DNA from: a virus
IMG/VR virus record: IMGVR_UViG_3300032093_000578
Coordinates: 1 to 30,755 of that record
Strand: one strand, 5' to 3'
Length of the DNA stretch: 30,755 nucleotides
Under the pieces are notes generated by a model. The model did no database searches. It saw only the letters and a program-made list of their open reading frames with translations, and had not been told where the DNA came from. Shown in pieces: positions 1-27,237 of this stretch; within the stretch, counting starts at the first letter, position 1, and every line of letters begins with the position of its first letter. Position numbers and translations under genes: made by a program.

Positions 1-1078
1 CGTCCATTGCTTGACGCTCGTTGTAGAGGTGACGACCATTCCATCGGGGATAGAGACCAGTATCAGGGTGTCTATCACTTTCTTCCTGTCCGTCGAATGG
101 GGCGTCAGAGTAGGGCCAGAGGGTGACCCACTTGTCGGGGTCCTCGTCAGATTCGAGAAGGGCTGGCATTGCTAGGTAGGTCCAAGGGACCAAGCCACCT
201 GGGTACCTATCAGGGTTACGTAATTCTTTGTAGAGGTCTACCGCTGAGACGCGGGTGCCGATGACGACCAACTTACCTGTCGGGTTGAGACGGGAGCGTA
301 CGTCCTGGGTCAGCCACTTGATCTGTCGCTCAAAGTCGTTAGCGTTCGACAAGGTAACGGCGTCATCTATCAGAATCATATCGGCACGCTTGCCGTAGAT
401 CTGACCGCCAATACCGACCGCTTCTAGGTTCGGGTCCTTTTCAGAAGACTCACGGAGTTCTTCTCCGAAGGTGACGCGGGTAGCCTGCCAGGAGGCAGTC
501 TTGGTATTGAAGCCGACGCCTGCGGCGTAGGCCTGCTGGAGTTCCTCATACATCGGATGGGTCAAGCGCTGCTTGATAGCGTAGAGGAAGTCAGCCGCTA
601 GGCGCTGAGTCTGGGAAACTATCAGGACCCTGAAGTTCGGGTTGTTGACGATCTTGTAGGTTACGTAGTCAACGGTGATGGTGATGGACTTAGCGTGGTT
701 GGGCGGGATATTCAGGAGGATGCGGTTATTAGCGGTACCCCGCTCAAAGCGCATACTAGGATGAAGCCAGCCTGGGTCTCGTCCTTCTATGACGTCGACC
801 AAGTTCTTCTGGTGGTCAAAGGTCTCAGTCTTGAGAAACCTCTTACGCCAGGTTACGAAGTCGAGGTCTGCGACCTCTGCCTCTGAGAAGTTCTTAGAGA
901 TCGCGCCAAGGCGCGTCCTATCTGATAGGGATTTGAACTTAGGGTCAGAACGGCGGTAGTACTCGTAGGTCTTGATGGACTTGCCTGCGACTGCGCAGGC
1001 CTGCTCTACCGTCATCCCCTCGGTAATACATTCGAGGATGACTTTCTTTGCTAGTTCTGCTGATTGTTTATCGCCCAT
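1..1078 (-). CDS. Terminase large subunit (C-terminus beyond window)
   Basis: This is the ATPase that drives DNA into the prohead; its C-terminal nuclease domain should lie left of the window. About 359 codons are present from an ATG at 1078, preceded by AGGAAG five bases upstream. The N-terminus looks like a small helix-turn-helix. It is followed by a Walker A variant (NIPPNHAKS, the PPxHxKS form usual in phage terminases), a Walker B (MILIDDAV) and a downstream GTR motif (VVIGTRVSAVDLY). The reading frame is open to base 1, so the gene is cut by the window edge and is not a pseudogene. It is the first gene leftward of the 1079-1857 control region, so it probably opens the late operon, which would continue at the right edge on a circular map. 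Family assignment rests on motifs and is firm. Confidence 0.93.
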   Translation of the reverse strand, partial: MGDKQSAELAKKVILECITEGMTVEQACAVAGKSIKTYEYYRRSDPKFKSLSDRTRLGAISKNFSEAEVADLDFVTWRKRFLKTETFDHQKNLVDVIEGRDPGWLHPSMRFERGTANNRILLNIPPNHAKSITITVDYVTYKIVNNPNFRVLIVSQTQRLAADFLYAIKQRLTHPMYEELQQAYAAGVGFNTKTASWQATRVTFGEELRESSEKDPNLEAVGIGGQIYGKRADMILIDDAVTLSNANDFERQIKWLTQDVRSRLNPTGKLVVIGTRVSAVDLYKELRNPDRYPGGLVPWTYLAMPALLESDEDPDKWVTLWPYSDAPFDGQEESDRHPDTGLYPRWNGRHLYNERQAMD

Positions 1079-1170: not shown

Positions 1171-1325
1171 CCCTCGCCGTCGTTGCGACGAGCGAGGGGT
1201 AAATCCACTTCTTTCCTAGGGCCGCGTAGTTCCACGCAGCGGCCCCTGTACGGGGAGTGAACCTAGTGCGGTCCGTTTCACTCCCCTACTATATATAAGG
1301 CGGGAAAAATGGTCGATTTCCCGCC
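1171..1325. repeat. Run of tandem inverted repeats
   Basis: Four perfect or near-perfect inverted repeats lie end to end. They are 1171-1198 (7 + 5 bp with one bulged A), 1219-1245 (GGGCCGC / GCGGCCC), 1252-1286 (GGGGAGTGAA / TTCACTCCCC, 15-base loop) and 1299-1325 (GGCGGGAAA / TTTCCCGCC, 9-base loop). Smaller ones flank them (1096-1126, 1133-1148, 1405-1418). None is followed by a T tract in either direction, so they are not obvious intrinsic terminators. They may be protein-binding sites or single-strand structures linked to replication, late transcription or packaging. Confidence 0.7.
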
Positions 1326-1485
1326 GATGTGATGTATTTCACTAAAAGTTTACCGATCAATGTGTATGAATCGGACATATTGGGGCGACCCACAATAACA
1401 TAGATGCGCTTTAGCGCAGATATTTATTTGGGGAGTTACAGGTCAGGCGTCGCACCCTTTAGCAACGGGGGGTACTTCCGCGAGG

Positions 1486-1530
1486 TTGTCCACAGGTTTT
1501 TCCACAGCCTGTGGATATTGCTGTGGATAA
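1486..1530. promoter_or_regulatory. DnaA-box cluster, four boxes in a 12-bp dyad
   Basis: Four nine-base DnaA boxes start at 1486 (TTGTCCACA), 1498 (TTTTCCACA), 1510 (TGTGGATAT) and 1522 (TGTGGATAA). The first two read forward and the last two reverse. Spacing is exactly 12 bases throughout, and both pairs share one dyad centre at 1508. TTATCCACA and TTGTCCACA are the classical bacterial and high-GC actinobacterial consensus forms, so two boxes are perfect and two carry differences in the first three bases. AT-rich DNA lies just to the left. The boxes are directly seen; binding by host DnaA is inferred. Confidence 0.85.
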
Positions 1531-1857: not shown

Positions 1858-2217
1858 ATGCGTACCAAAGAGGAGAAAGCCACTTTCATCAAAGATCTAC
1901 GGGCCGCCGCTGACGCTATGGCTGCTAGTGGCGTAGTGCCGCCTAGTACACTGACAGATTACTATTCACTAAGAAACTGTTTCACGATCCTTTCACAGCG
2001 ATTAGACGCCACGCATTGCGCTGGCTTTCACGCGTGGCGAGACGCTGGCCGCATAGTGCGGAAAGGGTCTAAGGGAATCGCTATCCTGGTCCCGATAGGC
2101 GCTAAGGATGATGAAGGCCCTATGCGCTGGTCCTGGCGCTACGTGTTCGACATATCCGACACTGATCCGATTACGTCAGACAGCCCGACACTCCTAAGGG
2201 ATCTAGTCAGCGCGTAG
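1858..2217 (+). CDS. Stand-alone ArdC N-terminal (ssDNA-binding) domain protein
   Basis: The 119-residue product matches the N-terminal domain of ArdC antirestriction proteins. The diagnostic stretch is residues 57-74 (GFHAWRDAGRIVRKGSKG), followed by ILVP and a YVFDISDTDP segment. In ArdC this domain binds single-stranded DNA and is fused to a metallopeptidase domain, which is absent here. It is the first gene after the early promoter, with GGAAGG upstream of its ATG in a leader also found at two later genes. A role in protecting incoming or replicating DNA is plausible, but the protease-linked antirestriction function cannot be assumed. Confidence 0.8.
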   Translation: MRTKEEKATFIKDLRAAADAMAASGVVPPSTLTDYYSLRNCFTILSQRLDATHCAGFHAWRDAGRIVRKGSKGIAILVPIGAKDDEGPMRWSWRYVFDISDTDPITSDSPTLLRDLVSA

Positions 2218-2305: not shown

Positions 2306-2947
2306 ATGACTACAGCAACAGAAACACGCACAGACATAACAGCAACAGTGAGAGGGGACGCGCTACGGGACGCGCTGGCCGCGTCTTTGGCCTTTGCTGA
2401 TAATAGTACGCTGGCAACTGCTGGCGTAATGTTTCAGATCAAAGGCCCTAGCGTGATCCTGGCGGCTACAGATCGCTACCGGCTTATAGAGATCTCAGTG
2501 CCTATCGTGGCCGCTGTAGGTGACGCAATGGAGGAGATGGCCCGCATATCTTACGACGATGCTAAGACCCTGCTGGCCACGCTGAAGGCGGCAAAGTTGA
2601 GAGGGTACAGCGTGAATCTAACAGTGGAGGGCCACTCTCTCAGCGTGAGCGTATTAGGCGCGTCTCAGATCATCAGCCTAGATCCATCAGTGGCAGGGAG
2701 GGCGATTCCTTACGTCCATCTCTTCCCTATGTTTCTAGCAGACGTAGAGGATGGCGTCCCTTCGCCTTATGTGAATCTGAATCCGGCCTACCTCTCAGAC
2801 TTTGCCAAAGTAGCGGGCAAGGGTAATCCGATTACGCTGAGATTCAGCGGGGACGGCAAAGTAATCTCAGTGGAATCGGTAGCGTCTAAGTGTAATGATC
2901 TCTACACGTGGCGCGGCCTACTTATGCCGGTACGTGTCGCGTCTTGA
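2306..2947 (+). CDS. dnaN: DnaN-like DNA polymerase sliding clamp, two-domain form
   Basis: The 213-residue protein resembles the bacterial DNA polymerase III beta clamp. Residues 54-60 (ATDRYRL) match the strongly conserved beta-clamp motif. Near the end VNLNPAYL and LLMPVR (205-210) match the last domain and its C-terminus. Bacterial beta clamps have about 370 residues and three domains; this one has room for two. It would tether the polymerase, presumably host Pol III since no phage polymerase is seen. The start follows GGAAGGGATAAGTA and lies downstream of hairpin copy 1. Homology is confident; the oligomeric state is inference. Confidence 0.85.
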   Translation: MTTATETRTDITATVRGDALRDALAASLAFADNSTLATAGVMFQIKGPSVILAATDRYRLIEISVPIVAAVGDAMEEMARISYDDAKTLLATLKAAKLRGYSVNLTVEGHSLSVSVLGASQIISLDPSVAGRAIPYVHLFPMFLADVEDGVPSPYVNLNPAYLSDFAKVAGKGNPITLRFSGDGKVISVESVASKCNDLYTWRGLLMPVRVAS

Positions 2948-2953
2948 TCCTTG

Positions 2954-2991
2954 CCCGTCCTTCTAGGGTAGTGATACCCTAGAGGGGCGGG
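2954..2991 (+). promoter_or_regulatory. Conserved long hairpin, copy 2
   Basis: A 17-base-pair stem closed by a GTGA (GNRA-type) loop, in the gap after the clamp gene. Compared with copy 1, two base pairs have changed on both sides (A-T to G-C at 2957/2988, T-A to C-G at 2956/2989). Other differences toggle between Watson-Crick and G-U pairs. GAGGGGCYAA follows both copies. There is no T tract. Confidence 0.8.
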
Positions 2992-3037
2992 GAGGGGCCA
3001 AAGGATGGCCTTCTCTACTAGATGGAAGGGATACGTA

Positions 3038-3259
3038 ATGAGCAAAGAGATAACAGTGGCGCGATTCTTTGAGGGGATCACGCTACCCGATGGGAGCGCT
3101 CTCTATGGGCCTAATGCTGAGCGTCTAGGCTATGCGGAAGATGGCGCTAGGCTGATCGACAGCCTGGGCCGCTTTGGATATTGGCCACACTTTGGCGGCG
3201 GCTGGATCTGTTACACGTGTGGCGCTCTATGTTGCTGTAACGATGGGGAGGAGGGCTAG
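3038..3259 (+). CDS. Small conserved-leader early protein, cysteine-rich tail
   Basis: I do not recognise this 73-residue protein. An in-frame ATG at 3005 exists. I chose 3038 because it is preceded by GGAAGGGATACGTA, the same leader seen before the clamp and ArdC-N genes. The C-terminus has a cysteine cluster (CYTCGALCCCNDGEEG) that could bind a metal. It ends two bases before the LPD29 gene. Confidence 0.7.
   Translation: MSKEITVARFFEGITLPDGSALYGPNAERLGYAEDGARLIDSLGRFGYWPHFGGGWICYTCGALCCCNDGEEG

Positions 3260-25886: not shown

Positions 25887-27237
<1,351 letters not shown>

Follow-up and report, generated by a model that had tools for sequence, protein, structure and literature searches.

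Facing double DnaA boxes between the late and early genes of an actinobacterial phage: a recurrent, labile element that may dock host DnaA

Why should a phage genome carry four DnaA boxes in a strict register between its late and early genes, and does this array serve as its replication origin? We addressed this question for a viral DNA of 30,755 nucleotides (IMG/VR record IMGVR_UViG_3300032093_000578), whose whole length was analysed and is called the window below. The array, TTGTCCACA-ggt-TTTTCCACA-gcc-TGTGGATAT-tgc-TGTGGATAA (positions 1486-1530), resides in a 780-bp noncoding gap from which the late arm (TerL) extends to the left and the early arm (ArdC-domain protein, clamp) to the right. 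An earlier note, made from the letters alone, had described boxes starting at 1486, 1498, 1510 and 1522 in the orientation +,+,-,- with a 12-bp register and a common centre at 1508, two of them matching the classical consensus exactly. Both statements were confirmed from the sequence, the exact matches being boxes 2 and 4 (Table 1). Using TTATCCACA as the scoring reference, the boxes reached 8, 8, 8 and 9 matches, giving a total of 33/36; box 1 has what we take to be the DnaA-box form of high-GC actinobacteria. Since both same-strand pairs are separated by 3-bp gaps, each corresponds to the sequence definition of a double DnaA box. The two tight pairs (>> <<) are inverted and face each other across a 3-bp centre.

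Table 1. Position, strand and properties of the features in and around the noncoding gap of the window
Feature	Position	Strand	Remarks
Terminase large subunit, first late-arm gene	1..1078	-	cut by window end; phrog_38, E 1e-41
Late (TerL) promoter-like element	1289..1300	-	CCTTATATATAG; conserved
Crp/GlxR-like palindrome	1328..1343	.	TGTGATGTATTTCACT; upstream of late promoter; conserved in relatives
AT-rich element	1418..1433	-	CCCCAAATAAATATCT; conserved in carriers and non-carriers
Conserved flank	1458..1473	-	ACCCCCCGTTGCTAAA (TerL sense); alignment; adjoins array; shared by many box-bearing and box-free relatives
DnaA box 1	1486..1494	+	TTGTCCACA; 8/9 vs TTATCCACA
DnaA box 2	1498..1506	+	TTTTCCACA; 8/9 vs TTATCCACA; fits TTWTNCACA exactly
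DnaA box 3	1510..1518	-	ATATCCACA; 8/9 vs TTATCCACA; one mismatch to TTWTNCACA
DnaA box 4	1522..1530	-	TTATCCACA; 9/9; fits TTWTNCACA exactly
ArdC N-terminal-domain protein, first early-arm gene	1858..2217	+	PF08401
Clamp-like protein (processivity factor), second early gene	2306..2947	+	phrog_947, E 3e-9; phrog_12598 also matches

The regularity of the array had been thought unlikely by chance. When 20 Mb of sequence were simulated by a first-order Markov model with the dinucleotide make-up of the window, the best four-box array in a 12-bp register reached 25/36, far from the value of the real one. At the other constant spacings from 9 to 30 bp, the window did not contain any four-box array exceeding 24/36. 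A scan of the whole window disclosed six further boxes with at least 8/9 matches, all of them single, while about 5.8 were expected by chance. Thus, the array is the sole cluster in the window and, as at origins, its box density exceeds the background. Judged by its sequence, the array is an element of the DnaA-binding type, chance being excluded.

The layout was also looked for in other phages, as the earlier note had recommended, and there it recurs. By the pattern TCCACA-N3-TNNTCCACA-N3-TGTGGA-N6-TGTGGA, the >> << arrangement in 12-bp register was detected in 36 IMG/VR contigs, one of which represents the virus of the window itself. When the central gap was kept, a 13-bp tandem register was found in none of the IMG/VR contigs and an 11-bp register in nine. 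Same-strand neighbours in two samples of loci collected without regard to boxes (see below) were spaced almost only by 11, 12 or 20-22 bp, and never by 13-19 bp. In vivo, the DnaA protein of E. coli prefers box pairs 2 or 3 bp apart, which are bound as a dimer and of which both boxes are needed; one extra bp between the paired boxes strongly lowers binding (PMC11317965). We ascribe the 12-bp register of the array to this spacing rule, and in all likelihood host DnaA binds the array. Stereotyped layouts of three boxes occur in other viral contigs, with gaps of 4 and 13 (L062, L073, L079 and others), 3 and 6 (L067, L077, L090) or 23 and 17 bp (L055, L068, L087). The 4-bp tandem gap in some viral contigs departs from the 2-3 bp rule. 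From sequence comparison, clusters of DnaA boxes seem to be widespread in environmental phages.

On bacterial and archaeal chromosomes (85,000 species), the layout was present at only six loci. The best two belong to Rubrobacter and have near-perfect boxes, with dnaA near one and dnaN near the other, which indicates that this geometry occurs also at a bacterial origin locus. In the remaining four the outer boxes are weaker, and these loci resemble fortuitous palindromes. The notion that the array differs from the loosely spaced boxes of bacterial oriC could therefore be upheld in part only, as two Rubrobacter chromosomes carry the same dyad near dnaA or dnaN. These data also bear on the possibility that the array is a product of chance, a compositional artefact, a packaging site or a DnaA-box look-alike bound by some phage protein. 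Its distance of 408 bp to the terminase gene and the putative nature of DnaA binding would fit such explanations. Chance, however, is excluded by the simulation, and another protein would hardly explain why unrelated phages and the Rubrobacter dnaA/dnaN loci show the DnaA consensus combined with the DnaA spacing rule. We regard this group of explanations as very unlikely. A packaging site is not supported, since close relatives with the same terminase are devoid of the array.

The carriers comprise two phage groups having almost no proteins in common. Group A consists of the window and TerL relatives that are 68-78% identical, phages of about 40 kb to which the Planktophila phages E7 and F5 are related. 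Group B phages have genomes of about 100 kb (97-108 kb in three records examined in full) and encode their own DnaE-type polymerase and DnaB; the gene used as bait for this group had no relative in the named-phage collection. Within group B the boxes are retained while the flanks have diverged, and the carrier proteins share roughly 45-60% identity. Further DnaA-box pairs reside at fixed places of group B loci (L262: 3813 and 5703; L292: 3523 and 5682; L252: 3260 and 5615). Their boxes form direct repeats at a spacing of 21 bp or inverted ones at 23-24 bp; CTTACGG stands between the boxes and a GC-rich hairpin in front, and many of these pairs recur across 80 loci. The GC skew of group B changes at the array in the sense of a terminus, a change that is explained by gene direction; the skew was rejected as evidence for an origin because it is confounded by gene strand.

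The window itself is a freshwater-type actinobacterial phage. Besides the genes listed in Table 1, it encodes WhiB, the major capsid protein, a DnaB-like helicase, an exonuclease, a sigma-like factor and a primase, the zinc-finger and TOPRIM parts of which are split between two ORFs. Terminase and capsid are closest to OX376640 and OX376641 (45-50% identity). These records of 39.1 and 38.9 kb fit E7 and F5, cultured phages of Ca. Planktophila isolated on strain LanE-43 (PMC10202952); the boxes are absent from E7, the nearest cultured phage. A search for relatives by means of the clamp yielded the same virus only (100% identical over 7.9 kb), and the PF03237 profile did not match even the window's own terminase. 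Clamp, primase and helicase, which the earlier note had listed as present without a polymerase, were all recovered, and neither a PolA nor a PolIII-alpha (DnaE-type) match was obtained in the window or in group A, many contigs of which are partial. A Rep initiator was not found among the window proteins scanned, which represent a subset of the ORFs on part of a genome. DnaA domain IV, the DNA-binding domain, was missing in 22 phage records of both groups, many of them partial contigs, and a phage-encoded DnaA as the binder was rejected on this basis. Three other properties of the window may be mentioned. The small ArdC-type protein contains only the ArdC N-terminal (anti-restriction) domain and has several relatives at 55-60% identity. 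Two intergenic copies of about 90 bp (2221-2309 and 2951-3041), which are 72% identical and each precede early genes, are perhaps repeated early regulatory elements. In the tail region (25887-26897) a protein with collagen-like Gly-X-Y repeats is encoded.

By alignment, the array of group A carriers fills one slot of a conserved scaffold composed of AAGCCC, the array, ACCCCCCGTTGNTAAA, AAATAAATATCT, TGTGAN6TCACA and CCTTATATATAG, while non-carriers hold unrelated sequence in this slot. A motif search for a replacement of the array in non-carriers gave mainly elements that are also present in the window, the split into carriers and non-carriers being poorly anchored. A strong AT-rich unwinding element abutting the array was not detected, the AT content within the gap attaining a maximum of 0.60 per 50 bp. 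The conserved AT-rich AAATAAATATCT is situated about 55 bp from the array and is kept by non-carriers, too; the AT-rich element of Table 1 is the only candidate for unwinding, a role that it may have. No iteron family was found in 1080-2310, and in this respect the region does not resemble an origin of the RK2/P1 type. In the leader of TerL (1252-1286), a perfect 10-bp inverted repeat (GGGGAGTGAA/TTCACTCCCC) is present, and relatives contain a similar hairpin. TGTGA-N6-TCACA palindromes recur in the TerL-upstream regions of relatives, in L163 between 2300 and 2600 and at gene starts of group B, where Crp/GlxR-like palindromes also accompany DnaA-box pairs in spite of the lack of relatedness. 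Their recurrence suggests, at the sequence level, a Crp-type control of these phages by the host.

This neighbourhood raises the possibility that the array controls transcription, in that host DnaA bound to it, together with a regulator of the Crp/GlxR type, sets early against late transcription from the divergent promoters. The location between late and early arms close to the conserved palindrome and the late promoter would be suitable for this function, and the other box pairs of group B likewise lie beside hairpins and Crp-like palindromes. The distance to the late promoter-like element, however, amounts to about 190 bp in the window (183-199 bp in six four-box carriers measured). Furthermore, while in group A the array is positioned between late (TerL) and early genes, in group B many loci show a gene whose end lies 17-28 bp ahead of box 1, the genes on the opposite side pointing toward the array, so that the double box occupies a gap between convergent genes. 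A promoter operator is thus not the common denominator of the two groups, and we consider transcriptional control unlikely.

To study the distribution of the array independently of its boxes, two box-blind samples were evaluated. For group A, 80 loci were collected via the TerL of the window; 65 of these were usable and, together with four known carriers, made up a sample of 69. For group B, 80 loci were obtained via a gene some kilobases away, 70 of them with enough sequence. A double box with 17-18 of 18 matches was present in 13/69 loci of group A, the others scoring 11-15, and in 38/70 loci of group B, nearly always in the corresponding gap, the others scoring 12-15. Presence is hence bimodal in both groups, a locus having either the full double box or none. 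Upstream of TerL, the box density of the TerL-sampled loci was about six times that of the remaining locus sequence. Mapping the box label onto the TerL tree required 12 changes, nine or more of them forced by supported branches; within its supported subclade of eight members, the window alone is a carrier. The relatives closest to it by TerL (84-91% identity) lack boxes at the locus, and five non-carrier contigs do not contain a tandem pair anywhere, yet possess the same replication genes as the carriers. With 13 carriers out of 69 and none among the nearest sisters, the array is not conserved along with the replication genes. For a conserved origin of the group, absence from close relatives had been named beforehand as the result that would speak against it, and this idea was given up. 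The DnaA boxes are evidently dispensable for replication in group A. We concluded from the sequence comparisons that the array is real, recurrent and under selection, and that it is an accessory and labile element rather than a fixed origin.

Such patchy presence and a gene position that depends on the group would be expected where binding alone suffices, e.g., if the array acts as a sink. Phage copies with four strong sites each would soak up host DnaA and thereby block new rounds of host chromosome replication or derepress DnaA-controlled genes, the benefit being nucleotides and replisomes freed for the phage. The sites are near consensus and, from their spacing, predicted to be cooperative, group B records hold extra box clusters beyond the main array, and plasmid-borne DnaA boxes do titrate DnaA in E. 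coli (PMC5835720). Against this, a sink needs neither a fixed dyad nor a slot, yet conservation extends to the spacing of the centre and of the pairs and to the distance from the late promoter; moreover, one four-box array per genome is small until late infection. A sink is therefore conceivable, though rather unlikely.

Very probably, as far as its sequence tells, the array is a device for using or disarming the replication initiator of the host. We favour a docking site for host DnaA, formed by two facing double boxes in the noncoding region that separates the late from the early arm. Each pair would take up a dimer of host DnaA in a cooperative manner, so that two dimers face each other, and the bound protein might help to open or mark the start of phage replication and to load the replication machinery, so that the array starts or boosts phage replication. 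We propose docking for replication because a primase, a helicase and a clamp are supplied by the phage, in which neither an initiator nor a polymerase was recognised. The strict register, the 36 contigs opposed to none and nine in the control registers, the fixed slot in group A and the Rubrobacter matches speak for docking, as does the convergent gap at many group B loci, an unsuitable place for a promoter operator. Box-free relatives including E7 and the lack of an abutting AT-rich element and of iterons count against it. The weakest step is the last one: that the array serves the initiation of phage replication through recruited host DnaA is possible, and we would give it slightly less than an even chance. 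Although the array has double DnaA boxes, it should not be classed as a replication origin, since it is not conserved among relatives; it may nevertheless work like one. More tentatively, the dyad might have evolved repeatedly in unrelated phages of aquatic actinobacteria (putative for group B) as a plug-in for reading or commandeering the host initiator, being swapped in and out of one slot as hosts change. If this is true, a phage without DnaA could, for instance, make the start of its replication dependent on available DnaA-ATP, or shut off host initiation. Known binding geometry and stereotyped recurrence make the element directly testable, and E7 and F5 on Ca. Planktophila provide cultured related phages for a comparison without boxes. 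The array also represents a searchable signature of how abundant freshwater actinobacteria phages couple to the replication cycle of their hosts.

The use of host DnaA by plasmids is textbook knowledge. A literature search revealed nothing systematic on its use by tailed phages; as far as the literature was searched, the ingredients are known, while no description was encountered of the stereotyped inverted double pair in phages, of its occurrence in both groups or of its repeated gain and loss. Like the double DnaA box of E. coli (Stringer et al. 2024, PMC11317965), the array has tandem boxes 2 or 3 bp apart, but on a phage genome and as two pairs arranged head-to-head around a 3-bp centre. 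The plasmid origins RK2 oriV (four boxes, the orientation of which matters), P1 oriR, pSC101 and F dock host DnaA on a foreign replicon (review PMC4980987), as the phage putatively does; they have iterons and Rep, whereas the phage region has no iteron family and no recognised Rep was found. The oriC-type locus of two Rubrobacter chromosomes shares the >> << 12-bp dyad. Compared to a chromosomal oriC, the phage has no neighbouring dnaA, no clear AT-rich unwinding element and only four boxes. With datA and plasmid-borne titration sites (PMC5835720) it has in common a cluster of strong boxes that is predicted to be able to sequester DnaA, but the strict dyad geometry and the fixed slot distinguish it from datA. 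Finally, Ori-Finder predicted DnaA-box origins in phages such as PseuGes_254 (PMC11512268); there it is a software prediction for a single genome, whereas the array described here is stereotyped, occurs in two phage groups and is accompanied by spacing controls and a phylogeny.
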